From positions 5,220,071 to 5,284,070 of the forward strand of contig NZ_CP031704.1 in the NCBI RefSeq assembly GCF_003428335.1: a DNA stretch of 64,000 nucleotides, in the 5' to 3' direction. Of the stretch, positions 6,983-40,227 are shown in pieces. Each line of letters opens with the position of its first letter. Position 1 is the stretch's first letter. The notes under the pieces were generated by a model. That model did not search any database, had not been told where the DNA came from, and worked only from the letters and a program-made list of their open reading frames with translations. This DNA comes from Solimonas sp. K1W22B-7. Its GTDB lineage: Bacteria > Pseudomonadota > Gammaproteobacteria > Nevskiales > Nevskiaceae. The translations under genes were made by a program, and so were the position numbers.

Positions 6983-7333
6983 ATGGAACAGACCCAAGCC
7001 CTAGAAATCATCCGTTCGCTCGCCAAGGGCGCCGATCCCGCCACCGGCGAAGCCTTGCCCGCCGAGCATGTCTGCCTGCAGGCGGACGTGCTCAGCGCCC
7101 TGAGCCTCGCCATGGAAGCCCTGCAGCGCGCTGCCAGCGCGCAGAAGAAGAACCAGGGCCTGCCGCCCAGCACTGGCAAGCCCTGGGCGCCGGACGAGGA
7201 CCAGGCGCTGGTCGCCGCCTTCGATGCCGGCAGCACGATCAAGCAGCTGGCCGCGGCGCACCTGCGCACCAACGGCGCGGTCCGCTCGCGGCTGATGAAG
7301 CTCGGCAAGATCGATCCGCACCAGAAGCCCTGA
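6983..7333 (+). CDS. hypothetical protein with C-terminal Myb/SANT-like HTH
   Basis: A 116-residue protein. Residues 1-50 are helical (MEQTQALEIIRSLAKGADP, then ALPAEHVCLQADVLSALS). Residues about 65-110 read PWAPDEDQALVAAFDAGSTI.QLA.AH.RTNGAVRSRLMKLG, which has the tryptophan, acidic cluster and closing 'R..GA..SRL.KLG' of small Myb-like helix-turn-helix domains seen in many proteobacterial proteins of unknown role. DNA binding is likely but no target is evident. The next gene starts 5 nt after the stop, so it is probably co-transcribed with the GNAT gene. Confidence 0.75.
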   Translation: MEQTQALEIIRSLAKGADPATGEALPAEHVCLQADVLSALSLAMEALQRAASAQKKNQGLPPSTGKPWAPDEDQALVAAFDAGSTIKQLAAAHLRTNGAVRSRLMKLGKIDPHQKP

Positions 7334-7338
7334 GCGCG

Positions 7339-7788
7339 ATGCCGGTCCGGCTGAGGCAGGCGCGGGCAGGCGACGTCGATACGCTGGCGCCGCTGTTCGA
7401 TGCCTATCGCCAGTTCTACGGGCAGGCCCCGGACCTGGCGCTGGCCCATCGCTTCCTGGCGGAGCGGCTCGGCCGGCTGGAGTCGGTGGTGTTCCTGGCA
7501 ACCGGCGAGGCGGACGAGGCCCTGGGATTCACGCAGCTGTTCCCGGTGTTCTCGTCGGTGCGGGCCCGCCGCACCTACACGCTCAACGATCTGTTCGTGG
7601 TGCCGGAGGCTCGCCGCCGGGGCGTGGCCCTGCGCCTGCTGGAAGCCGCGGCGGCGTTCGGCCGCGAGCAGGGCGCGGCGCGGCTGTCGCTGGCGACGGC
7701 GCTGGACAACATCCCGGCGCAGCGGCTCTACGAATCGCTGGGGTGGAAGCGCGACGAGGCGTTCTGTCACTACCACCTGGCACTCTAG
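7339..7788 (+). CDS. GNAT family N-acetyltransferase
   Basis: A 149-residue GNAT acetyltransferase. The acetyl-CoA pyrophosphate loop of motif A is visible as VPEARRRGVALRLLE (about residues 92-106, Arg-Arg-Arg-Gly-x-Ala form) after the beta strand TLNDLFV. The C-terminal motif NIPAQRLYESLGWKRDE is the typical motif B ending. The acceptor substrate cannot be told. The start at 7339 is 5 nt after the preceding gene's stop; the gene for a small secreted protein follows 4 nt after its own stop. Confidence 0.9.
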   Translation: MPVRLRQARAGDVDTLAPLFDAYRQFYGQAPDLALAHRFLAERLGRLESVVFLATGEADEALGFTQLFPVFSSVRARRTYTLNDLFVVPEARRRGVALRLLEAAAAFGREQGAARLSLATALDNIPAQRLYESLGWKRDEAFCHYHLAL

Positions 7789-7792
7789 CGGC

Positions 7793-8251
7793 ATGAAGAA
7801 AATCTTGATGGGCCTGCTGTTGCTGTTGGCCGCCGCTCCGGCACTGGCGGAGGATTTCAATGTCGAGGATGCCCTGGTCAAGCCGCCACCCGCAGTGCAG
7901 CGCGTGTTGCAAGGCCTGGACGTGACTAGGGAATTCCATTGTGCTTTCGAAGGCCGGGCCGTGGACCTGGACAGCGATGGCAGGGCTACGGACTTCATCG
8001 CGACCACGAGCCAGGGCTGCGCCTGGGGCGCGGCAGCCGGCCCGATAGAGGTGCTGCGCTGCGAAGCCGAGCGCTGCAAGCTGGTGCTGGACGGCACTGG
8101 CTACAGCCTGACGCTGGGCAGACCGCAGCCGGGCAGCCTGCGCAACGTGGCGATCTCCAGCGGCACGGCCAACCTCTACCAGGAAGAGCTCTGGAAATAT
8201 GATGGGCAGCAGTACAAGAAGGCGCGCAGCTACATGGGCGCGCGGCGCTGA
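7793..8251 (+). CDS. hypothetical secreted protein
   Basis: A 152-residue protein with a clear Sec signal peptide: MKKILMGLLLLLAAAPALA, predicted cleavage after ALA near residue 19. The mature part holds four cysteines (in FHCAF, QGCAW, LRCEA, ERCKL) that could form two disulphides, and a beta-rich pattern ending near LYQEELWKYDGQQYKKA. I do not recognise the family. It follows the GNAT gene by 4 nt and is probably the last gene of that small operon; a palindromic repeat pair follows. Confidence 0.75.
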   Translation: MKKILMGLLLLLAAAPALAEDFNVEDALVKPPPAVQRVLQGLDVTREFHCAFEGRAVDLDSDGRATDFIATTSQGCAWGAAAGPIEVLRCEAERCKLVLDGTGYSLTLGRPQPGSLRNVAISSGTANLYQEELWKYDGQQYKKARSYMGARR

Positions 8252-30152: not shown

Positions 30153-31820
30153 TCAGCCGACGCGATCGAAGCGCAGGTTGCGAACGCGATCCATGCCGAT
30201 CCAGAGCCCGGTGACCTTGCCGTCCTTGCGCTCGATCGAGAGCGAAGCGAAGGTCGGCAGCGACGGTGCCGGGATGCTGTGGAACGTGCCGCAACCGAGC
30301 ACGTCGGCGGACAGCGGCTCCAGCTCCCAGCGCGCCATGCCGACCTCCGGCAGGAAGTCGATGAACAGCTTGCCCTCCCTGAGCACGATCTCCAGCTCTG
30401 CCCCGAACCCGGCATAGCGGTAGCGCCCGGCCAGTGCGGGCGCGAGTTCCTCCGCCGTCGGCGGTGTGTCCGGCAGGCGTTCGAAGCGCTCCAGTTCGCC
30501 GGTGATGTGCACGTCCAGAAGGGCGGGCGGCGTGCTGCCTTCGGGCAGTGTGCGGATCTCGATCATGCTCATCGGACCGTCCGGCATGGCGAGGCCGTCA
30601 CCCGCTTTCTGCAGGATGGCCGTCGGCGCGTGGTACATCGACAGCAGCAGTACTTCCGGGGCTTCGGGCTGGACCTGCCGGGGCGCGATCGACAGCAGCG
30701 TGCGTGACTGCCGGCTGTACCAGCGGCCCCGTACCGAAGGAAACTCCGCGGCCGGGGCCGGCATCACCGGCGGCGCCAGGCCCTGGTCTTCCAGCACCGT
30801 GTCGACCACCTTCAGGGCCAGCGCCGGTGCCGACGCGTCCATGCGGTTGGCCATGATCACGATGTCCAGTTCATGCTGCGGCACCGTCAGCATCTGGCAC
30901 TGCGAGCCGAACGTGGCGCCGGCATGGTGAATCGTCTCGATGCCGCGATGGCTGTCGCGCGCGATGCCGAGGCCATAGCCGGCCTGCATGCCGCTGCGAT
31001 AGGTCTGGCGCTCGAGCATCCGCGCCCAGGTCGCTTCGCTGCCCACTTTCTTCCGCGAACCGCGCAGGTGCGCGACCCAGGCCAGCATGTCGTCGATCGT
31101 GGAGATCATGCCGCCGGAGCCCAGCACTTCGTCGGTCGGATAGATGCCGCGGCGCCAGCGGCCGTCGGGCAGCGGCATGTGCAGCGTCGCCATGTTCGGC
31201 ACGATGTCCATGTCGCTGCGCAGCAGCGCGGTCTCGTTCATGCCCATGGGCGCGAAAACGCGCCGGGTCATGAACTCCTCCCAGGTCAGGCCGCTGACGC
31301 GCTCGGTGACGAAGGTGAGCAGCAGATAGCCTGCGTTGCTGTAGGCCATGCGCTCGCCCGGCGCGAAGTTGAGATCGGTGAAGCGTGCCAGGAGCTGCAG
31401 GCCACCCCCGGCCGGCATGTGGCCATAGTTGCCGCGGTTCAGCAGGAAGGCCGCGAACATGGGATCGCGCAGGCCGCCGGTGTGATGCATCAGCTGCAGC
31501 AGGGTGGGCTCGCCGGAAACATTGGCCAGTTCCGGCAGGTAGGTTCGTACCGGCTGGTGGATGTCGAGCTTGCCCTCTTCGGCCAGCAGCATGATGCCGA
31601 AGCTGCAGAAGTGCTTGGTGGTGGATCCGATGCGCATGCGGGTGGCCGGCGTATTGGCCCTGGCGTGCTCGATGCTCGCCAGGCCGAAGCCGCGGCGATA
31701 GATCGCCTGGCCCCGATGCGACACGCCCACGACCAGGCCCGGCGCGTCACTGCGGCTCCAGGGCTTGAACAGCTCGTCGAGCTTCTGGATCGTGGAGAGT
31801 ACAACGGCGGGGCTGGTCAT
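30153..31820 (-). CDS. S12 family serine hydrolase (beta-lactamase/D-aminopeptidase-like)
   Basis: A 555-residue protein. The penicillin-recognising core covers about residues 20-360: the SxxK motif is STTK at about 67-70 and the YxN motif is YSNAG near 163. The last 180 residues are two beta-barrel-like domains, as in the D-aminopeptidase DAP or other S12 enzymes. No signal peptide is visible, so it is probably cytoplasmic. The ATG at 31820 is preferred to an upstream in-frame ATG that adds an unrelated N-terminus. Its divergent neighbours dgcN and dgcA act on D-amino acids, which supports a D-peptidase or D-esterase role by inference. Confidence 0.85.
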   Translation of the reverse strand: MTSPAVVLSTIQKLDELFKPWSRSDAPGLVVGVSHRGQAIYRRGFGLASIEHARANTPATRMRIGSTTKHFCSFGIMLLAEEGKLDIHQPVRTYLPELANVSGEPTLLQLMHHTGGLRDPMFAAFLLNRGNYGHMPAGGGLQLLARFTDLNFAPGERMAYSNAGYLLLTFVTERVSGLTWEEFMTRRVFAPMGMNETALLRSDMDIVPNMATLHMPLPDGRWRRGIYPTDEVLGSGGMISTIDDMLAWVAHLRGSRKKVGSEATWARMLERQTYRSGMQAGYGLGIARDSHRGIETIHHAGATFGSQCQMLTVPQHELDIVIMANRMDASAPALALKVVDTVLEDQGLAPPVMPAPAAEFPSVRGRWYSRQSRTLLSIAPRQVQPEAPEVLLLSMYHAPTAILQKAGDGLAMPDGPMSMIEIRTLPEGSTPPALLDVHITGELERFERLPDTPPTAEELAPALAGRYRYAGFGAELEIVLREGKLFIDFLPEVGMARWELEPLSADVLGCGTFHSIPAPSLPTFASLSIERKDGKVTGLWIGMDRVRNLRFDRVG

Positions 31821-32041
31821 CGACGAACGATCCTGTTGGCAAGGCGTACGGGTTTCTCGCGGCCCAGTGTGCGCCGGCGCAGGGTTCCCGGGCATCCATG
31901 AAAATACCGAATCCATGCGGGGGCCGCCCGGCCGATCCATGCTTTCGGCATCCGGCGTCGCGGCAAAACCCGGTGGTTTTGCGGATGGGCGGTACGGGAG
32001 CCGGTTGGTCTACTACGCTGACGATCCCTGGGGCCGTTTTC

Positions 32042-33088
32042 ATGAACCTTTCCTCCATCACCCATTCCTGCAACACCACCGTGGTGACGCTGCGCAGCCC
32101 TTACCTGCTGTTCCTCGGCGAGGCCGACATCGACTCGCGCGCCAAGACCGCCTTCGGCCTGCGCGACTGGGCGCCCGAGCGCTGCCTCGGCCAGCTGCGC
32201 TTGCCGGCCTGCAAGGTCACGCTCGGCCTGCCCGACATGACGCCGGCGGAAGCCGCCGCAAGGGGCGGCGGCTCGCTGGTGGTCGGCGTCGCGCCCAAGG
32301 GCGGCCGCATCGCCGAGAACTGGATTCCCGTGCTGCGCGCCGCGGTCGATGCCGGGCTCGACATCGTCAGCGGCATGCACGACTCGCTGTCGGACGTTCC
32401 CGGCCTCGCCGCACTCGCGCAGGCCCGCGGCGTGCACCTGGTCGACGTGCGCAACCCGCCCACGGGCCTGCCCACCGGCACCGGCCGCAAGCGCAGCGGC
32501 AAGCGCCTGCTCACCGTCGGCACCGACTGCGCGCTGGGCAAGAAGTACACGGCGCTGGTGATCGCAAACGCGCTGCGCGAGCGCGGCATCCGCGTGGATT
32601 TCCGTGCCACCGGCCAGACCGGCATCATGATCGTCGGCTCCGGCCTGCCGATGGATGCGGTGGTGGCCGACTTCAGCGCGGGCGCCGCCGAGGTGCTCTC
32701 GCCGGACGCCGATGCCGACCATTGGGACATCGTCGAAGGCCAGGGCTCGCTGTTCCATCCGGCCTACGCCGGCGTCACGCTCGGCCTGCTGCACGGCTCG
32801 CAGCCGGATGCCATCGTGCTCTGCCACGACCCCGCGATCACGCGCATCAAGTCCTTGCCGGACTTCCCGACGCCGAGCCTCGAGGTCGCGGCGCAGGCTT
32901 ACCTGCAGGCCGGCGCGCTGACCAATCCCGACATCCGCCTGGTCGGCGTGAGCCTGATCACCGAAAAAATGGACGAGGCCACCCGCCGGCGCACACTCGC
33001 CGATGCCGAGCAGCGCCTCGGCGTGCCGGCCTTCGATCCGCTCAAGACGCCGCTGCAGCCGCTGATCGATCGCATGCTCGCGGCATGA
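32042..33088 (+). CDS. dgcN: DUF1611 family protein, DgcN-type N-acyltransferase
   Basis: A 348-residue DUF1611 protein. An N-terminal subdomain (LLFLGEADIDSRAKTA) is followed by a P-loop NTPase-like fold with GTDCALGKKYTAL at about residues 160-172 and FRATGQTG...GSGLPMDAV beyond. DgcN from D-glutamate catabolic clusters acetylates D-Glu, and DgcA then epimerises the N-acyl product. The symbol rests on the family plus the adjacent epimerase. The ATG at 32042 fits the family start. The gene overlaps dgcA by 4 nt and is divergent from the S12 hydrolase. Confidence 0.8.
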   Translation: MNLSSITHSCNTTVVTLRSPYLLFLGEADIDSRAKTAFGLRDWAPERCLGQLRLPACKVTLGLPDMTPAEAAARGGGSLVVGVAPKGGRIAENWIPVLRAAVDAGLDIVSGMHDSLSDVPGLAALAQARGVHLVDVRNPPTGLPTGTGRKRSGKRLLTVGTDCALGKKYTALVIANALRERGIRVDFRATGQTGIMIVGSGLPMDAVVADFSAGAAEVLSPDADADHWDIVEGQGSLFHPAYAGVTLGLLHGSQPDAIVLCHDPAITRIKSLPDFPTPSLEVAAQAYLQAGALTNPDIRLVGVSLITEKMDEATRRRTLADAEQRLGVPAFDPLKTPLQPLIDRMLAA

Positions 33089-34068
33089 AGCAGCAGCTCA
33101 CGGTACGGCCGTGCAGCTGGCGGCTGAAGGAGCCCTTCGTCATCGCGCGCGGCACGCGCACGGTGGCCAGCAGCATCGTCGTGGAGCTGCAGGCCGGCGG
33201 CCATGTGGGGCGCGGCGAGGGCGCGGGTGTTGCCTATCGGGGCGAGACGCCGGAATCGATGACCGTGCAGATCGAACGGGTTCGCCAGGCGGTCGAGTCC
33301 GGGGCCACGCGCCGCGAGCTACTGGAATTGCTGCCCCCCGGCGGTGCGCGCAATGCGGTGGATGCCGCGCTCTGGGACCTGCAGGCGAAGCAGACCGGCG
33401 TGCGCGCCTGGACGCGCGCGGGCGTGCCGGGCGGTGGCCCGGTGCAGAGCGTGGTCACCCTCGGTATCCGCATGCCGGAGGCGTTCGAGGCGGCGGCGCG
33501 CCGCCTGGCCGATCATCCCTGGCTCAAGGTCAAGGTCGACCGCAGGGATCCGGTCGCCGCCGTCGCCGCCGTGCGGCGTGGGGCGCCGCGGGCGCGCCTG
33601 ATCGTTGACGCCAACCAGTCCTGGGATGCCGAGGATCTTGCGAGATTCGCGCCGGCCTTGCTGGAGTACGGCGTGGCCCTGCTGGAACAGCCGCTCGCGG
33701 CCGGCCACGATGAGGGCCTGTCGAAGGACCGGCGCCCGATTCCGCTCTGCGCCGACGAGTCGGTCAACACCATCGAAGACCTGCCGCGTCTCGCCGGGCG
33801 CTACGATTTCATCAACATCAAGCTCGACAAGGCTGGCGGCCTTACCGCCGCGCTGGAACTCGCGGCGGCCGCGCAGCGCTCGGGCTTGCGCCTGATGAGC
33901 GGCTGCATGGTCGGGGCCTCGCTGGCGATGGCGCCGGCGATGGTCCTCGGACAGCTCTGCGAGATCAACGATCTCGATGGCGCCTTCCTGCTGGCCGAGG
34001 ACTGGCCGGACGGCATCGTCTACGAGCGCGGCAGCATGCGGCCACCCTGGCCGGCGTTCTGGGGCTGA
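33085..34068 (+). CDS. dgcA: dipeptide/N-acyl amino acid epimerase, enolase superfamily
   Basis: A 327-residue member of the muconate-lactonising/dipeptide epimerase subgroup. The catalytic Lys pair is LKVKVD at about 150-155, with metal ligands Asp in DANQ (about 174), Glu in LEQP and Asp in CADES, and the second base is Lys in INIKLDK near 250. The family catalyses 1,1-proton transfer at the alpha carbon, for example L-Ala-D/L-Glu epimerase or N-acetyl-D-Glu racemase. It overlaps dgcN by 4 nt (ATGA), so the two act together in turning D-amino acids to the L form. Confidence 0.88.
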   Translation: MKQQLTVRPCSWRLKEPFVIARGTRTVASSIVVELQAGGHVGRGEGAGVAYRGETPESMTVQIERVRQAVESGATRRELLELLPPGGARNAVDAALWDLQAKQTGVRAWTRAGVPGGGPVQSVVTLGIRMPEAFEAAARRLADHPWLKVKVDRRDPVAAVAAVRRGAPRARLIVDANQSWDAEDLARFAPALLEYGVALLEQPLAAGHDEGLSKDRRPIPLCADESVNTIEDLPRLAGRYDFINIKLDKAGGLTAALELAAAAQRSGLRLMSGCMVGASLAMAPAMVLGQLCEINDLDGAFLLAEDWPDGIVYERGSMRPPWPAFWG

Positions 34069-34095
34069 TCCGGATCTTCGTCACCGGCGTCGGGG

Positions 34096-34465
34096 CTAGG
34101 GCCTGTCATCCCTTCCCTGGTCGCTGCGACGGAGGCCGCCTGGGTGCAGGGCTATGCCCCGAGGCGCGCCGATGGCTGACTGCGAAGCGACATTGAGTCG
34201 CTTCGCAGCTAGGGCCATCGGCTGTACTAGACGTACATAAGCGACTCGGGACGCCGCCCTGCGCCCAGGCGGCCCCGCCCTTCGGGTGCCCCCGTCTTTG
34301 CCGCCATGCTGGCCATTGGCTTACTTCGGAGCGACATCGAGTCGCTCCTCAACAGGGCCAATGGCCTCGTCAGTCTCTTATTCCCGATAAGCCACCTCCT
34401 CGCGCCTTGCCTGGCGGCAAATACGGGGGCATCGCAGCGATCAGGGAAGGGATGACAGGCCCTAG
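34096..34465. mobile_element. MITE-like 370-bp element with 34-bp terminal inverted repeats
   Basis: The ends 34096-34129 and 34432-34465 are inverted repeats over 34 bp with one mismatch (outer sequence CTAGGGCCTGTCATCCCTTC). Inside are three further stem structures: TGCGAAGCGAC/GTCGCTTCGCA near 34180-34206, GGAGCGAC/GTCGCTCC near 34327-34347, and GGCCATTGGC/GCCAATGGCC enclosing the latter. No reading frame of note is present. The structure suggests a non-autonomous transposable element or a structured RNA gene. Confidence 0.7.
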
Positions 34466-34500
34466 AGCAGTTTCGATTCAATCAAGAAGACATCGAGCCC

Positions 34501-34530
34501 CGTCATGCCGGCGGAAGCCGGCATCCAGTC
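34501..34530. repeat. dispersed repeat unit, CGTCATGCCGG family
   Basis: The unit begins CGTCATGCCGGCGGAAGCCG and ends GCATCCAGTC. An inverted partner begins GACTGGATGCCG at 34554, is split by IS30, and continues as CCGGCTTTCGCCGGCATGAC at 35597-35616. Confidence 0.75.
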
Positions 34531-34569
34531 CCGGACAGGAGTCGCCACCGTACGACTGGATGCCGTGAG

Positions 34570-35588
34570 TTCACAAACCAAATGCAACACCCTATTACGA
34601 GGGTGCTGCAATGGGACGCAAGAGCTTTGAGCAATTTGGAATCGAGGAACGGTGTGAGATTTCCCGTCGGCGCCAAGCCGGGGAGTCGATCCGGCAAATT
34701 GCGGCAGCTCTGGATCGCGCGCCATCGAGCATTTCTCGGGAACTGAAGCGCAACACTGGCGCGACGGGCTACCAGAGCGTCTATGCCGGCGAGCAAGCTC
34801 GGGCGCGCCGCTGGCAAGGTAGCCGGCTTCTGCGTGATGCCGAGCTGCAAGCCAGGGTTCTGGAGGGATTGCGCCGAGGCTGGTCTCCCGAGCAGGTATC
34901 GCGGCGGCTGGCTCAGCAGGATCTGCAGATCAGCTACGAGAGCATCTATCGCTTCATTGCCGCCCAGATCGCCCGGACCAACGACTTTTCCTGGCGTCTC
35001 TATCTGCCCCGTGCCAAGAGCAAGCGCGGCTTCCGTGGCCGCAAGGGCGGCAGCCCGGCAGAGCACATCCAGCAGCGGGTTTCGATCGAAAAGCGCCCCA
35101 AGGCTGCGGCTGACCGGCGCCAGGCGGGACACTGGGAAGCCGACCTGATGCTCTTTGCGCGCTATGGCCAAGCCATCCTGACCCTGCATGAGCGAACGTC
35201 CCGGCTGACCGCCATCGTCCGCCAGCCCAGCAAGGCCGCTGCGCCGGTGGCGCAAACCCTCCAGGCCTTGCTGGCCCCACTGCCCCCAGCCCTGCGCCGC
35301 AGCATCACCTTCGACAACGGCACCGAATTCGCCTTGCACTACACCCTGCATCAGCCCCTGGGCTTGCAGACCTATTTCTGCGATCCGCATTCCCCCTGGC
35401 AGAAGGGTGGCGTCGAGAATGCCAACGGGCGTTTGCGCCGCTGGCTACCCCGGGGAACCAACGTCGAAGACCTCTCACCAGACCAACTCTTGCAGATCGC
35501 TCAGATCTACAATCACACGCCACGCAAGTGCCTCGGCTTCAAAACCCCTGCCGAGGTCTTCGCCAAAGTGTTGCATTTCAAATGTGAA
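34570..35588 (+). mobile_element. IS30 family insertion sequence
   Basis: Ends are 21-bp imperfect inverted repeats: left 34570-34590 begins TTCACAAACC and ends AAATGCAACAC; right 35568-35588 is its complement with four mismatches. The element holds one transposase gene. It sits inside the second arm of a dispersed CCGGCGAAAGCCGG-type palindrome, separating GACTGGATGCCG from CCGGCTTTCGCC. I could not identify a clear target-site duplication by eye. Confidence 0.85.
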
Positions 35589-35615
35589 TCCACCTACCGG
35601 CTTTCGCCGGCATGA
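34611..35615 (+). CDS. IS30 family transposase
   Basis: A 334-residue transposase. The N-terminal HTH is IRQIAAALDRAPSSISRELK (about residues 24-43). The DDE catalytic core shows HWEADLM (Asp near 178), TFDNGTEF (Asp near 234) and WQKGGVENANGRLRR (Glu near 270). The frame is intact, so it may be active. The frame does not end inside the element: its last nine codons and TGA at 35613-35615 lie beyond the right inverted repeat, in the flanking repeat DNA. The start at 34611 is 20 bp after the left repeat. Confidence 0.95.
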   Translation: MGRKSFEQFGIEERCEISRRRQAGESIRQIAAALDRAPSSISRELKRNTGATGYQSVYAGEQARARRWQGSRLLRDAELQARVLEGLRRGWSPEQVSRRLAQQDLQISYESIYRFIAAQIARTNDFSWRLYLPRAKSKRGFRGRKGGSPAEHIQQRVSIEKRPKAAADRRQAGHWEADLMLFARYGQAILTLHERTSRLTAIVRQPSKAAAPVAQTLQALLAPLPPALRRSITFDNGTEFALHYTLHQPLGLQTYFCDPHSPWQKGGVENANGRLRRWLPRGTNVEDLSPDQLLQIAQIYNHTPRKCLGFKTPAEVFAKVLHFKCESTYRLSPA

Positions 35616-35753
35616 CGCTGATGATGAAACGACAGCGATGCAAGCATTGAGACCAGAAGTGCTCCAGGCAGCTCCGGCAGCAACCGCACGCCTGAAGCGT
35701 GCTGACGGCAGGGGTCGGTTCCCGGGGCGGCGGATTGGGGCCCGCAGCGGTGA

Positions 35754-36866
35754 TCAGCTCAGCGCCCGGACCAGTTCGGTTCGGGAGCGGATGTCGAGCT
35801 TGCGGTAGATCGAGTTCAGCTGGAACTCGACGGTGCGGCGCGAGCGCGACAGGTGCTCGGCGATCTTGTGGTTGCGCAATCCCCGGGCCACCAGCTGTGC
35901 CACGCGCCGCTCGGTCGGCGTCAGCCGCTGGAGTACGAGCAGGGCGGCCTGCGAGGACTCCTGCGGCGCCTCTCCGGCCACCGGCTCGTCGAGGAAAGTC
36001 ACCACATAGCTCGGACTCATCTGCAGCCCCGAGAACTGCCAGTTGCGGTCGATCTTCACCGACAGCCCGGTGAGCGCAGGATGCGGTCGCCGCACCGAAC
36101 CGGGCTGACCGTCATTGGCGCCCGGCTTGCCGGCCTCGAACATGGCACCCACCGCCTCCGGCAGGCGGAAGCAGGCATCCGAATCGACCGAGCCGCGCAG
36201 GCCGCGATTCCATCGTCCGCACTGCTTCTCCGCTTCATTGTTCGCAAACAGCGATTCGCCGGCGGCATTGACGAACATCACGGTCAACGGCACCTGCCGC
36301 AGGAAGTGCTCGTAGCTGGAACGCCGGCTGCGCTCGCCTTCCACCGCACGCAGGCGGCGCAGCGCGGCCTCGATCATCGGATGCAACTGCTCCAGGAACG
36401 CATGCTCCTCGGCGGTGACCTGCGACTGATCCGGTGGCCGGCGAATGCTGAGGACCGCCTCGGGGCGCGAATCGTGCCAGAACGCCAGGTGGATGAACTC
36501 GTTCCATTCCGGATCGGGTTCCTGGTCGAGACGCCGGCGGTGCGCATCCGGATCTTCGGACACGATCTGGGAATAGGTGTACAGCTTGATCTGCGGATGG
36601 CGCGCCAGGTACGGGCCTGAAATGGTCAGGCTGGTGGCCGGTACGTAGTCGGGATTGCGCGGCAGCACCACATGGTGGCGGGCATCCGTCGGTTCATAGT
36701 TGACGATGTTGAACATCAGGCTGCATGAGCGGTGCGGCAGCTTGCTTGCGATCAGCTTCAGGCAAGCCTTCCAGGTGCTCTCGAGATCGAGCGAACTCTG
36801 CAAGTCGACCACCAGGGCCCGATAGGGGTCGGCGGAGGCTCCGCGCTGGGGAATCAAGGCGCTCAT
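35754..36866 (-). CDS. LuxR-family regulator with long N-terminal sensor region
   Basis: A 370-residue protein. The C-terminal LuxR-type HTH is at about residues 305-368 (LTPTERRVAQLVARGLRNHK and FQLNSIYRKLDIRSRTEL). The first 290 residues have no receiver domain and are longer than in LuxI-partner regulators. Residues about 190-280 look PAS-like (VPLTVMFVNAAGESLFANNE), and residues 15-170 may be GAF-like. It is divergent from an acyltransferase-cNMP fusion gene across 300 bp and may control it. The signal is unknown. Confidence 0.88.
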   Translation of the reverse strand: MSALIPQRGASADPYRALVVDLQSSLDLESTWKACLKLIASKLPHRSCSLMFNIVNYEPTDARHHVVLPRNPDYVPATSLTISGPYLARHPQIKLYTYSQIVSEDPDAHRRRLDQEPDPEWNEFIHLAFWHDSRPEAVLSIRRPPDQSQVTAEEHAFLEQLHPMIEAALRRLRAVEGERSRRSSYEHFLRQVPLTVMFVNAAGESLFANNEAEKQCGRWNRGLRGSVDSDACFRLPEAVGAMFEAGKPGANDGQPGSVRRPHPALTGLSVKIDRNWQFSGLQMSPSYVVTFLDEPVAGEAPQESSQAALLVLQRLTPTERRVAQLVARGLRNHKIAEHLSRSRRTVEFQLNSIYRKLDIRSRTELVRALS

Positions 36867-37166
36867 TCTGCGCAGAATAGCAATCCCCGGAGCCTCCGGC
36901 CATCAGGTGAAAACACCGGTTTTTCCCTTGCCCGAGTTCTCTTTTTCCCGCAGCAGCAGCGGCAGGGTCGAATCCACAGGTTCAGGCGGGCGGAGGCAAA
37001 GCGGGCGATTTGCATTCCCTCATGCCCGAATCGGGAATCACCACGGATTGACGCAGGCTTCCTGTGCCGCCGCGCACGTTGCGGCCGTTCAGGACCGGCT
37101 ACGCTAAAGCCCGGGCCGCGACTGCGGCACCTGAACAAGAAGAACAAACGCAGGAGCGGAACCCGC
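36867..37166. promoter_or_regulatory. divergent intergenic region, LuxR regulator and GNAT-cNMP gene
   Basis: A 300-bp region with both promoters. Near its middle lies CCCGAATCGGG inside a wider ATTCCC...GGGAAT arrangement at about 37014-37038, a candidate operator. No other gene is seen. Confidence 0.4.
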
Positions 37167-38279
37167 ATGAAAGTCGACATCAAACAGGCGCAGACGCCTG
37201 AGGAATTCGCCGCGTGCGCGCGCCAGCGCTACCGCGTCTACACCGAGGAAATGAACCTCTACCACGACGCCGCGGACCAGCAGGGCCAGCAGCTCAGCGA
37301 TCCGGACGATGCCTGGTCGCGCTTCTACTACGCGGCCGTAGATGGCGAGGTGGTGGCGAGCCTGCGCTTCCACTGGGGCAGCGATGGGCAATTTTCCGAG
37401 GAATGGAACGCGGTCTATCGTTTCGACAGCTTCGCGCCGGATGTGCTGCCGGAGCAGATGGCCGTGGGCTCGCGGCTGACGGTGGACAAGGCTTACCGCG
37501 GCTCGGCGCTGCCGGGCCAACTGGTGGCGCACGGGTTGACCGAGTGCCTGCGCGACGGCAAGCAGCTGGTGTTCCTGGACTGCGTGCCGCACCTGATCAA
37601 CTACTACACCCGCCTGGGCTGGCGCCAGTACACGGACAACGTCGAGGACACCAACGTCGGTATCCTGGTGCCGATGTGCCTGGTGTTCGATGACCGCGAT
37701 CACCTGGCGCGCGTCGGCAGCAACCTGCTGGCGCTGGTGGACGCGGTGCGCCCCGGGGTGACGGCCGGCCCCTGGGTGCATCGCCTGTTCCCGCATTCCA
37801 GCTATGCCGAGGCGGCGCTACGCCACGGCAGCCAGTCGGCGGTGTTCCAGCTGCTCAGCGAGGGCCTGCTGCCGATCTTCCAGGGCTTCACCACGGCGCA
37901 GGTGCAGCTGCTCACGGACCAGAGCAACATCCTGGACTGCGAGGCGGGCGCGCTGTTCATCCGGCGGCGCACGGTCTACCGCAGCGTGTTCGTGGTGCTG
38001 TCGGGGCAGATGGAAGTGCTGGGCGACAAGGACGTGGTCGCCACCATCGGCAAAGGCGAGCTGGTCGGCGAGATGTCGTTCGTGCTCGGCGGCATGCGCA
38101 GCGCCGACGTGCGCGCCGGGCCCGAGGGCGCACAGGTGCTGTCGCTGCAGGAGAACATCCTGCGCAAGATGCTGGACGCCGACACGGCGCTGGCCTCGCG
38201 CTTTTATCACAACCTGTCGCGCATCCTGGCACTGCGCCTGGCCGGCGTCGGCGCGCGCGGTACGGAGGCCGACGCATGA
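37167..38279 (+). CDS. GNAT/FeeM-like acyltransferase fused to a cyclic-nucleotide-binding domain
   Basis: A 370-residue protein. Residues 1-190 have a GNAT-type or autoinducer-synthase-like fold: ARQRYRVYTEEMNLY at about 16-32 (as in LuxI/FeeM-type N-acyl synthases), VASLRFH for the central strand, and VGSRLTVDKAYRGSALPGQL in place of the acyl-CoA loop. Residues about 230-350 form a cNMP/CRP-like beta-roll (FVVLSGQMEVLGDKD, then IGKGELVGEMSFVLGGMRSA), without an HTH. So acyl transfer may be gated by a cyclic nucleotide. The ATG at 37167 has AGGAG upstream. It overlaps the next gene by 4 nt (ATGA). Substrate and product are unknown. Confidence 0.8.
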   Translation: MKVDIKQAQTPEEFAACARQRYRVYTEEMNLYHDAADQQGQQLSDPDDAWSRFYYAAVDGEVVASLRFHWGSDGQFSEEWNAVYRFDSFAPDVLPEQMAVGSRLTVDKAYRGSALPGQLVAHGLTECLRDGKQLVFLDCVPHLINYYTRLGWRQYTDNVEDTNVGILVPMCLVFDDRDHLARVGSNLLALVDAVRPGVTAGPWVHRLFPHSSYAEAALRHGSQSAVFQLLSEGLLPIFQGFTTAQVQLLTDQSNILDCEAGALFIRRRTVYRSVFVVLSGQMEVLGDKDVVATIGKGELVGEMSFVLGGMRSADVRAGPEGAQVLSLQENILRKMLDADTALASRFYHNLSRILALRLAGVGARGTEADA

Positions 38280-39187
38280 GCACGCCCCAACTCTCCGCCG
38301 GCGACCTGCTGTCGTACTCCGCCGGCTCCACCCAGACCGGGCCGGACGGCTTTCGCAAGGTCACCCGCGGCGGCCTGTCGCTGACCGCGGTGGTCAGGGC
38401 GCACTGGCCTCAGCTGCTGGCGCCGTTCCGCGGGCGCACGCCGGTGGTGGTCAACGCCTACCCGGCAACGATCGGCTTTCCCACCGACGGCGTGCTGGTG
38501 GACTGCTACCTGAGCACGCGCACCGCCAGCCGCGCGCTGCAGCTGGCCGCGCGCGAGGACATGCCGGCGATGCTGATGTGCCAGTCGCTGTTCCTGGCGG
38601 AGCTGCTGTTCCGCCATGCCGCGAACGGCCTGCGTTTTCCCGACGCGGTGATCGCGATCGCCGGCGGCTACTGCACGCCGCGCTCGCTGCTGCAGGCGCT
38701 GACCGCGCTGCTGGCGGAGAAGGGCGTGCCGTTCACGCTGCTGCAGGGCTACGGCGTGGCCGAGGTGGAAGCGGGCATGCTCTGGGGCGTGGACTACGAC
38801 GCGCAGGGCCGCGTGATCTACCGCCGCCGCGGCCCCGACATCCATGCCGGTCTCATCGACGGACGCCTGCACCTGGCCCTGCTGAACGCACAGGGCGAGT
38901 TGCTGAACGCACCCTTCGACACCGGCGACAGCGCGGTGCTGGACGGCGACGACGTTCTCATCAGCAATGCCCGCAGCCGCCTGTCGCCCGAGGTCATGGC
39001 GGAACTGGAAGGCTGGGACATGGACGCGTGGCGCCGCCGCACGGGCTACGTCGGACGTGCCGATGGCCGGCTGGTGTTCCAGCTGCGCGAGGGCGTGCCG
39101 GCCGCGGGCGACAATGAGCTAGGCTATTACCTGTTCGGCGACCGCTTCGGCTTTTCCTGGCTGAGCAAGCCGCAGTGGGGCCTCTGA
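38276..39187 (+). CDS. truncated adenylate-forming (ANL)-like protein
   Basis: A 303-residue protein with pieces of an ANL ligase arranged in order: LLSYSAGSTQTGPDGFRKV near residues 11-29 (A3-like 'YSSGTTG...K'), VIAIAGGYCTP and LLQGYGVAEVEAG near 155-167 (A5 'YG.TE'), and FDTGDSAVLDGD near 215-226 (A7 'TGD'). It lacks the usual N-terminal half and the C-terminal lid, so it is about half a normal ligase. It is translationally coupled to the acyltransferase-cNMP gene. A role in activating or holding an acyl or amino-acyl group for that enzyme is an inference. Confidence 0.6.
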   Translation: MSTPQLSAGDLLSYSAGSTQTGPDGFRKVTRGGLSLTAVVRAHWPQLLAPFRGRTPVVVNAYPATIGFPTDGVLVDCYLSTRTASRALQLAAREDMPAMLMCQSLFLAELLFRHAANGLRFPDAVIAIAGGYCTPRSLLQALTALLAEKGVPFTLLQGYGVAEVEAGMLWGVDYDAQGRVIYRRRGPDIHAGLIDGRLHLALLNAQGELLNAPFDTGDSAVLDGDDVLISNARSRLSPEVMAELEGWDMDAWRRRTGYVGRADGRLVFQLREGVPAAGDNELGYYLFGDRFGFSWLSKPQWGL

Positions 39188-39212
39188 GTACCCGGCGTTA
39201 ACCGGAGCTTGC

Positions 39213-39665
39213 ATGACCGACCTGGAGCGACTGCTCGCCATCGAGGACATCAAGGCGCTCAAGGCGCAGTACTTCCGCGGCGTGGACACGAAGGACGCGG
39301 TGGCCCTGCGCGCGGTCTTCGCCGATGGCGCGGAAACCGACTTCCGCTCGGAGTCGCCGACCGGCGATCCGGCCTTCCACCAGCACGACCCCGACGCCTT
39401 CGTCCGCAACACCCTGTACATGCTGGAAGGCACGGCCACGGTGCATGCCGGCTTCATGCCCGAGATCGAGTTCCTGTCGGATACCGAGGCCCTCGCGCGC
39501 TGGCCGATGAACGACCGCATCTGGGTGGAAGACACCAGCCTCGGTCGCCTGCCGTTCATCACATTGACCGGCTGGGGCTGCTACCACGACCGCTACGTGC
39601 GCGGCCCCGCGGGCTGGCGCATCGTGTCGACGCGGCTGCAGCGGACCAGGCTCATCGTCGGCTAG
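39213..39665 (+). CDS. SnoaL-like domain protein
   Basis: A 150-residue protein of the SnoaL_4 type (NTF2 fold): ERLLAIEDIKALKAQYFRGV at the start with the family's Tyr and Arg, then HAGFMPEIEFLSDTEALARW and GCYHDRYVRGPAGWRI. Members include dehydratases and isomerases of aromatic or steroid substrates. A GGAG 6 nt before the ATG is clear. It starts 25 bp after the ANL-like gene, so it probably belongs to that operon. Its end overlaps the rhomboid gene on the other strand by 14 bp. Confidence 0.88.
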   Translation: MTDLERLLAIEDIKALKAQYFRGVDTKDAVALRAVFADGAETDFRSESPTGDPAFHQHDPDAFVRNTLYMLEGTATVHAGFMPEIEFLSDTEALARWPMNDRIWVEDTSLGRLPFITLTGWGCYHDRYVRGPAGWRIVSTRLQRTRLIVG

Positions 39666-40227
39666 CGCGCCCGCGCCGCTTGCCCAGCACCAGCAGGCCA
39701 CCGGCCAGGCCGCCCAGATGCGCGAAGTGCGCCACGCCTGACAGCGTGCCGGTCACACCGGCATACAGCTCGAACGCGGCATACAACACCACGAACAGCG
39801 GTGCCGGCAGCGGGATCGGCGGAAACAGCAGCAGCAGCTTGCGATCGGGAAACAGGATGGCGTAGGCCGCCAGCAGGCCGAACAGGCCGCCTGAGGCGCC
39901 GACGGTGGGCACCGGCTTGCCGAAATGCACGGCGACCAGTTGCGTCGCCGCCGCGGCCAGCACGCTGACCGCATAGAGACGCAGGAAGCGCAACGGACCC
40001 AGGGCCTGCTCCAGCTCGCGGCCAAAGGTCCACACGCCGAACATGTTCACCGCCAGGTGCAGCATTCCGCCATGCAGGAAGGCGCTGGTCACCAGCTGCC
40101 AGGGCTGGAAGCCCTCTCCCAGCGGCCACAGGGCATAGCGTGGGATCAGGCCATCCGACGCCTGAAGCTGGAGCAGGAAGATCGCGATGTTGGCGATCAG
40201 CAGGAACAGCGTGACAGGCGTTCTCAT
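39652..40227 (-). CDS. rhomboid family intramembrane serine protease
   Basis: A 191-residue protein with six hydrophobic helices. The catalytic serine is in GASGGLFG (Ser112) and the partner histidine in AHFAHLGG (His170). LHGGMLHLAVNMFGVWTFG (about 51-69) is the conserved loop-1/TM2 region. It cleaves membrane-spanning proteins; the substrate is not known. It is convergent with the SnoaL-like gene, and their 3' ends overlap by 14 bp. Confidence 0.93.
   Translation of the reverse strand: MRTPVTLFLLIANIAIFLLQLQASDGLIPRYALWPLGEGFQPWQLVTSAFLHGGMLHLAVNMFGVWTFGRELEQALGPLRFLRLYAVSVLAAAATQLVAVHFGKPVPTVGASGGLFGLLAAYAILFPDRKLLLLFPPIPLPAPLFVVLYAAFELYAGVTGTLSGVAHFAHLGGLAGGLLVLGKRRGRASRR

Follow-up and report, generated by a model that had tools for sequence, protein, structure and literature searches.

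The locus lies in a 64,000-nucleotide window of the Solimonas sp. K1W22B-7 genome (NZ_CP031704.1), in which two plus-strand genes form a unit at positions 37167-39187. The first (37167-38279, +) encodes a fusion of a FeeM/LuxI-type GNAT domain (residues ~1-205) with a cyclic-nucleotide-binding (cNMP) domain at the C terminus (~235-340), an assignment drawn from Pfam, a structure model compared by Foldseek, profile searches, and dN/dS. The second (38276-39187, +) encodes a 303-residue reduced protein of the ANL superfamily (mini-ANL), recognized through Foldseek, hhalign, and dN/dS. A gene for a LuxR-family regulator (35754-36866, -) lies on one side of the pair and a SnoaL_4 gene (39213-39665, +), codirectional with it, on the other. 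An earlier, sequence-only reading of this DNA had placed all four open reading frames where we find them and had pointed out the stop/start overlap of the paired genes, ATGA at 38276-38279 (+).

The two genes adjoin in all three genomes in which the 303-residue protein was found (the window genome, G002, and G034), which make up the whole close family of the pair, and the ATGA overlap is identical at the three orthologous loci. Between the window and G002, dN/dS is 0.32 for the GNAT-cNMP gene and 0.27 for the mini-ANL gene, and both genes are under purifying selection; toward G034 the value is about 0.6 for both. Together the genes probably constitute a functional, translationally coupled unit, and the conserved pairing on which the sequence-only reading had staked its proposal is borne out by these genomes and by an analogous pair in a distant gammaproteobacterium, G112. 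A FeeM-cNMP enzyme with a decaying ANL fragment as a chance neighbor would suit a close family of three genomes and the higher dN/dS toward G034, but the shared overlap, the intact reading frames of the pair, the value of 0.27 toward G002, and the similar pair in G112 make such an accident very improbable. Neither 72,556 plasmid records nor 56 pattern-matched viral stretches yielded a match to the 303-residue gene, and weak, short matches in G062 and G320 (E 0.006-0.008) were dropped as chance before counting.

The LuxR protein has a GerE domain (E=1.9e-13, residues 314-367), and its sensor region, described earlier as nonstandard, gave no Pfam match above cut-off. It had been proposed to sense the product of the neighboring enzymes. 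In the window the regulator gene and the pair are divergent and 300 bp apart, and an orthologue (79-100% identity) occurs in exactly the three pair-bearing genomes of the nine searched, a co-occurrence that favors a link within this set. However, the LuxR gene and the pair are on different contigs in G002 (at least 55 kb apart) and in G034 (at least 23 kb apart), and in both genomes the 17-21 kb surrounding the pair contain no LuxR match; that the protein's sensor region has no known domain above cut-off also speaks against such sensing. The conserved company of the LuxR gene is instead a D-amino-acid cluster (30153-34068, with genes on both strands), delineated by domain matches and synteny: the surroundings of the regulator gene in each of the three genomes include a D-aminopeptidase-like gene (30153-31940, -; match below cut-off) and a DgcN-like gene (31898-33088, +; 449 of 480 bits), the latter followed in the window by DgcA (33085-34068, +; above cut-off). 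On this synteny the LuxR gene is probably a bystander, and we consider sensing of the product by its protein a faint prospect. The SnoaL-like gene is likewise real (Pfam SnoaL_4, E=2.1e-20) and likewise probably a bystander. It had been assigned to the operon, but in G002 it adjoins a rhomboid gene, with two antisense genes between it and the pair, and no SnoaL match was found in the fetched G034 loci. With the LuxR sensor and the SnoaL operon membership set aside, what stands of the earlier interpretation is the pairing and, as set out below, the acyltransferase fold and the ANL ancestry.

The cNMP domain (37869-38186, +; Pfam and alignment) matches Pfam cNMP_binding at residues 259-338 (E=4.7e-10), and Pfam gave no HTH match in the fusion product, in agreement with the earlier description of a cNMP domain joined to an acyltransferase without HTH. 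Its phosphate-binding cassette, GE(x8)RSA, reads GE...RSA or GE...RNA across the window, G002, and G034, and E302 and R311, the ligand Glu and Arg of the cassette, are retained in all three orthologues. These residues suggest that the domain may be competent to bind a ligand. The window genome also has 11 matches to class III cyclases, of which two seem to share an ORF.

The N-terminal half of the fusion scores above the Pfam cut-off for Acetyltransf_5 (25.8 bits against 22.4) and below that for FeeM (21.2 against 27); the orthologues in G002 (31.4 bits) and G034 (28.3 bits) and the fusions of G052 and G176 all exceed the FeeM cut-off. The predicted structure is confident (pLDDT 92), and Foldseek searches of the PDB with the acyltransferase recovered FeeM (2g0b, E=6.7e-8) and BjaI (E=4.3e-9), with AHL synthases and FeeM within the top 50 matches; the highest query TM-scores belong to LuxI/FeeM-type enzymes, and ordinary GNATs are numerous among the 657 matches at E<=1e-3. 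In a profile search of PDB sequences BjaI ranked first (E=5.4e-9). The model thus upholds the LuxI/FeeM-like N terminus that had been read from the letters. While the LuxI-type AHL synthases (BjaI, RpaI, and LasI) are among the top fold matches, the window enzyme differs from them in carrying a cNMP domain, in having by its side a LuxR protein with GerE as its only domain above the Pfam cut-off and no recognizable LuxR of the AHL-binding type, and in its active-site signature: where BjaI has the Glu of E-x-x-R, the alignment places Val100, and the window protein reads V-G-S-R. Val occupies this position in all three window-group sequences and Glu in one of the 21 rows compared. We infer that the position is equivalent to the catalytic Glu of FeeM (Glu95) and Nas354 (Glu103), which in Nas354 is described as proven necessary (PMC4897644). 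The substitution, as read from the alignment, would caution against assuming textbook catalysis.

Mycobacterial Pat, a cAMP-gated lysine acetyltransferase in which an N-terminal cNMP domain precedes a Pat-type GNAT, acylates acyl-CoA ligases. Since the window fusion also unites GNAT and cNMP domains in one protein and its gene adjoins that of an ANL relative, it could be a Pat-like, cAMP-gated protein acyltransferase with the partner ANL protein as its target, and the NCBIfam model of mycobacterial Pat (NF058543) does match it (E=2.2e-5). That match, however, covers residues 235-317 only, within the cNMP part (23.5 of 460 bits); the domain order is the opposite of that in Pat; the GNAT is of another subfamily, best matched by LuxI/FeeM-type enzymes in profile and query TM-score, even if many ordinary GNATs match too; and related fusions keep company with haem-oxygenase-like or XrtA/PEP-CTERM genes without an ANL gene. 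We therefore regard protein acylation of the partner as improbable.

The mini-ANL gave no match in Pfam (E<=1), NCBIfam (E<=1), or PHROGs (E<=0.01), and its profile found nothing among PDB sequences at E<=10; an LL-diaminopimelate aminotransferase considered as a relative (E=0.96) was rejected as chance. The ANL ancestry suggested by the sequence-only reading is supported by fold and by profile alignment. All 13 Foldseek matches in the PDB at E<=1e-3 are ANL enzymes, with ClxA at the top, at low query-normalized TM-scores (0.36-0.44) and rmsd of 5.0-9.3. The underlying model, built on three sequences, has a pLDDT of 66.8 and a pTM of 0.70, and residues 1-34, 161-166, and 258-303, among them those of the A3 loop and some of A5, fall below pLDDT 50. 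Alignment by hhalign to 14 ANL ORFs of the same genome (motif-selected; 14 of 30 loci used) gave E=1.3e-5 with a probability of 81, against E=0.52 for the reversed control. The A3-like glycine-rich loop at residues 14-28 (YSAGSTQTGPDGFRK; 38315-38359, +), with SAGST at residue 15, is invariant in all three sequences, and motif reading places an A5-like YGVAE at residues 159-163 (38750-38764, +) and an A7-like FDTGD at residues 214-218 (38915-38929, +). The ordered, spaced triple arose once in 200,000 shuffles, a figure that is a rough guide because the motifs had already been seen when the pattern was drawn up. Persistence of the motif residues in sequences as low as 59% in overall identity suggests that a nucleotide site has been retained. 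Fold and motifs together place the protein in the ANL superfamily, with the A3 and A5 loops modeled at low confidence and the TM-scores low.

What is missing is substantial, and the earlier remark that half the ligase is absent was a fair one. The A3-like match, at residue 15 in the mini-ANL, begins at residues 148-213 in 11 of the 14 ANL ORFs of the same genome and at 299, 369, and 619 in the three that remain, which are long ORFs. The A7 pattern matched in 4 of these 14 ORFs, with 128-158 residues after its start, compared with 89 in the mini-ANL. The mini-ANL has thus lost some 150 residues at its N terminus and the greater part of the lid. In ANL enzymes the A10 lysine is located in the lid; by eye, no A10 lysine motif is recognizable in the mini-ANL, which also lacks the N-terminal subdomain of a full adenylate-forming ligase. 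These losses, together with the tight, conserved coupling to one enzyme, would fit a noncatalytic accessory subunit that binds AMP/ATP or acyl groups and regulates or feeds the cNMP-gated acyltransferase. The conservation of A3, A5, and A7 argues against this, and the tail, in which Lys298 is invariant, may substitute for the lid; on balance we hold the accessory role to be rather unlikely. Short ANL proteins are found among the fold matches listed, namely ClxA (400 residues), 4gs5 (350), and 3hgv (346), which we take to be EhpF; the mini-ANL shares their ANL core and departs from them in its 303 residues, its A3 motif at residue 15, and its lack of a recognizable A10. ClxA is described as an adenylating amide ligase and not a full-size CoA ligase (PMC12519233).

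In G112 a GNAT-cNMP fusion overlaps a short ANL-like gene by 41 nt, so that a similar pairing recurs. Its GNAT, FeeM, cNMP, and AMP-binding matches all lie under the Pfam cut-offs, the cNMP Arg is lost, and its ANL protein does not resemble the window mini-ANL significantly (E=0.17). A spike-protein construct, the sole phmmer match of the G112 ANL protein in the PDB (E=0.01, no individual stretch of it passing), was set aside as chance. FeeM-cNMP fusions form a wider family, with at least 16 intact loci across 369 gammaproteobacterial genomes, some beside a haem-oxygenase-like gene or within XrtA/PEP-CTERM loci, and the fetched flanks of 12 further fusions held no ANL match, which indicates that the ANL partner is not the rule. 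A search of 398 genomes across the phylum gave no full-length fusion match beyond the source genome; four GNAT-only matches were fetched, including G597 and G615, the latter a reverse-order fusion.

Two described systems resemble the pair. Nas343 and Nas354 are FeeM-PilZ fusions described as N-acyl amino acid synthases, and they share with the window protein the GNAT fold, the Pfam family, and an N-terminal synthase followed by a C-terminal second-messenger domain (PMC4897644); the window protein differs in having cNMP in place of their PilZ, Val at the position aligned with the E-x-x-R Glu, and a mini-ANL gene as partner. The Tyz/Oxz acyl-oxazolone pathways likewise pair a FeeM-like N-acyltransferase with an ATP-dependent type of partner, FeeM-like TyzA being followed in the tyrazolone pathway by ATP-dependent TyzB acting on its product (PMC10404671). 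TyzB is ThiF-like whereas the window partner is ANL-like, Tyz has an oxidase, TyzC, whereas a nitroreductase-type oxidase was not identified beside the window pair, and the term "cyclic nucleotide" is absent from the main text of that paper.

Our results lead us to propose, tentatively, that cAMP or cGMP gates the acyltransferase and that the mini-ANL adenylates the carboxylate of its substrate or product. The FeeM/LuxI-type domain would transfer an acyl group from a CoA or ACP carrier to an amine, yielding an N-acylated small molecule, and cAMP or cGMP at the C-terminal domain would turn this transfer on or off. In the least certain step, the mini-ANL would adenylate a carboxylate of this pathway. 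The likeliest candidate is the one on the N-acyl product, which could then cyclize or pass to another nucleophile, an ANL remnant thus taking the role that TyzB has after TyzA. The fuller reading, in which a second-messenger-gated N-acyltransferase is joined to perhaps the smallest catalytic ANL protein, its core from A3 onward adenylating without an N-terminal subdomain or normal lid, and in which two distant lineages of gammaproteobacteria have each evolved or kept the unit, seems to us unlikely as a whole.

If the proposal is true, the output of an N-acyl metabolite would be tied to cAMP or cGMP at the level of the enzyme and not of the promoter, and the pair would test the minimal size of an adenylate-forming enzyme. 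To judge from the wider FeeM-cNMP family, including its XrtA/PEP-CTERM members, N-acyl amino acid synthases may generally be under the control of cyclic nucleotides.

All four genes that the sequence-only reading had joined into one system were found in the genome (G000; one contig, 5.37 Mb): a LuxR-family regulator (35754-36866, minus strand), a FeeM/LuxI-type GNAT acyltransferase fused to a C-terminal cyclic-nucleotide-binding domain (FeeM-cNMP; 37167-38279, plus strand), a reduced ANL-superfamily protein of 303 residues (mini-ANL; 38276-39187, plus strand), and a SnoaL_4 gene (39213-39665, plus strand). The middle two form a genuine pair, conserved within its small group and without a name in the libraries covered. 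The mini-ANL occurs in 3 of the 100 relatives searched, own genome counted, the other two being G002, from the same genus, and G034. Among 369 genomes of the class, a draw in which G002 and G034 are absent from the matches, it was found in no genome but the own once two short, weak matches had been set aside, and a collection of 84,980 species (53 pattern-matched stretches) yielded two loci, probably the same genomes as G002 and G034. The conserved pairing expected of the two genes was seen in all three carriers, where FeeM-cNMP lies directly upstream with an ATGA overlap. Their dN/dS values (NG86) are 0.27 for the mini-ANL and 0.32 for FeeM-cNMP between the window and G002, and about 0.6 for both between the window and G034. 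Matches over the full fusion occur in 5 of 58 family genomes. Three of these carry the mini-ANL; in the others, G052 and G045, an overlapping haem-oxygenase-like gene stands where it would be (PF14518 tested in G052 only).

The window FeeM-cNMP protein scores above the Pfam cut-off for Acetyltransf_5 and reaches 21.2 bits against FeeM, below the cut-off of 27 that its G002 and G034 orthologues pass. The model of residues 1-212, for which 16 sequences were the input, has a pLDDT of 92 and a pTM of 0.87. At E<=1e-3, Foldseek yielded 657 matches in the PDB, a number to be expected of a GNAT domain. Among the 50 matches listed, small GNATs lead by E-value, and AHL synthases and FeeM have the highest query TM-scores (0.60-0.66 for BjaI, MesI, TofI, RpaI, LasI, and FeeM; apo TofI 0.55), with two small GNATs also at 0.60. 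The profile's top match among PDB sequences is BjaI (E=5.4e-9), and fold and profile therefore bear out a GNAT/LuxI-like N-terminus. One reservation is that Val100 aligns with the Glu of the BjaI E-x-x-R motif; Val fills this column in the window, G002, G034, G052, G045, and the broken G395 piece, and of the 21 rows compared G146 alone has Glu. The G395 relative (L104, contig 51, about 7150-8076) has in-frame stops within the match and is apparently a broken copy. Excerpts of PMC4897644 state that the catalytic Glu of Nas354 is required, and we infer that it occupies the Val100 column.

The mini-ANL has no match in Pfam, NCBIfam, or PHROGs. Its model, built from three sequences, reaches a pLDDT of 66.8 and a pTM of 0.70, with residues 1-34, 161-166, and 258-303 poorly modelled, a set that takes in the A3 loop and some of A5. 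Every one of the 13 PDB matches that reach E<=1e-3 is an ANL enzyme, judged by its title in all cases but tt0168; they superpose only loosely (query TM 0.36-0.44), and ClxA is the top match (E=6.9e-6). Profile-profile comparison with 14 ANL ORFs of the own genome aligned A3 to A5 (probability 81, E=1.3e-5; reversed control, E=0.52). Motifs A3, A5, and A7 stand in order, with 144 residues from A3 to A5, and a pattern written post hoc from the motifs seen matches 1 in 200,000 shuffles. Lys298 in the tail is invariant in the three sequences. From sequence and model, we read the protein as a putative ANL core starting at A3 with a short tail; catalysis, and Lys298 as a stand-in for the A10 lysine, may be candidate roles.

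In the sequence-only reading, the LuxR protein sensed the product of the pair, and the distribution of its orthologue speaks for a link: in nine genomes searched at E<=1e-12, it co-occurs exactly with the pair (G000; G034, 86%; G002, 79%), with paralogues (45-49%) in G000, G002, and G003, weaker partial matches also in G002 and G003, and no match in G001, G011, G022, G030, or G037. Against this, gene and pair lie on separate contigs, at least 23 kb apart in G034 and at least 55 kb in G002 by contig ends, and the LuxR gene there has a DgcN-like gene within some 3-8 kb (453 and 452 bits; cut-off 480), with D-aminopeptidase-like genes (below cut-off) near it in G034, G002, and the window. This company and the distance from the pair suggest that the regulator more likely serves D-amino-acid use, and a link to the pair is not supported. 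To the left of the four genes, the window holds a DgcN-like gene (449 bits against 480) and a D-aminopeptidase-like gene, both short of their cut-offs, and DgcA, which passes its own. Conservation of the LuxR gene near such genes in three genomes (window 30153-36866, L167, and L168) marks it as a candidate regulator of D-amino-acid catabolism; in the window, an IS30-family transposase gene (34611-35615) separates it from that cluster. The SnoaL gene likewise drops out of the proposed operon: in G002, it adjoins a rhomboid gene and is parted from the pair by two antisense genes, and the fetched G034 loci hold no match. A rhomboid gene (39652-40227) converges on it in the window.

The fusion itself is more widespread, with at least 16 intact loci in 15 genomes of the 369-genome class sample (G000, G112, G176 with two, and 12 more), a lower bound from 18 fetched regions picked on their score or the length of their frame. 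The flanks fetched for the 12 further loci hold no ANL match at E<=1e-3. Because the short ANL of G112 itself reaches only E=0.0014 with that profile, the search was repeated at E<=10 over 34 loci, and it returned G112, the known mini-ANLs, and no others. Excerpts of PMC4897644, citing Craig et al. 2011, connect PEP-CTERM with certain N-acyl amino acid synthases and describe a FeeM-PilZ fusion, the nearest published likeness; our literature search, in part by title, found no publication on such synthases with cNMP domains. XrtA/PEP-CTERM marker genes score above cut-off at six of eight fusion loci with one or two neighbours tested, a glycosyltransferase being the only neighbour tested at the other two. 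The fusions of L201, L203, L206, L209, L210, and L212 (~400 aa) adjoin such marker genes, retain the cNMP Glu and Arg, and have Met at the column of window Arg103. In G176, a haem-oxygenase-like gene overlaps one of the two copies; the fusions recorded with an overlapping gene for a haem-oxygenase-like iron enzyme are L038:6417-8203, L039:7031-8829, and L106:5458-7322 (PF14518 tested in L038 and L106). FeeM-only relatives adjoin genes of this kind at L040 and L110, by Pfam, and at L200, by the own profile alone. The domain order is inverted in G615, cNMP-FeeM, with an overlapping fatty-acid-hydroxylase gene, an arrangement recorded at L111:6405-8146.

Glu302 and Arg311 of the window protein, residues of the phosphate-binding cassette, are present in all three proteins of its group, and both are kept in 17 of 20 fusions with a complete cNMP domain; Arg is replaced by Cys in G052 and G045 and by Ser in G112, and Glu by Asp in G052. 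Eleven class III cyclase matches in the genome, two apparently within one ORF, suggest that a ligand is likely available.

A second such arrangement occurs in G112, which belongs to the same class and has a low GC content. Its 411-aa fusion, which stays under every cut-off (cNMP 24.8, Acetyltransf_5 17.0, FeeM 14.5 bits), is encoded by a gene overlapping that of a 336-aa protein by 41 nt. This protein carries A5 (FGSTE) and an A7-like FDLGD, scores weakly against AMP-binding (E=7.8e-5, short of the cut-off), and has an hhalign match to ANLs (E=8.2e-5). Both it and the window mini-ANL have about 90 residues beyond A7, their direct comparison is not significant (E=0.17), and 143 relatives of G112, itself included, gave no match beyond G112 (E<=1e-5). 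In the tree of the acyltransferases, G112 sits on a very long branch and does not join the window group, so the two pairs may share an origin or have arisen separately.

A signalling circuit around the pair is not supported; its chemistry is proposed. In the tyz pathway, per excerpts of PMC10404671, the N-acyl-tyrosine formed by a FeeM-like enzyme is desaturated by an oxidase and cyclised by a ThiF-like enzyme with ATP; ClxA, per excerpts of PMC12519233, is a short adenylating ligase that forms amides alone, its Lys supplied by the partner monomer's cap. By analogy with this ATP-dependent step and with ClxA, we propose the mini-ANL as a carboxylate activator for the FeeM-cNMP acyltransferase, one that would act on the carboxylate of its substrate or product.
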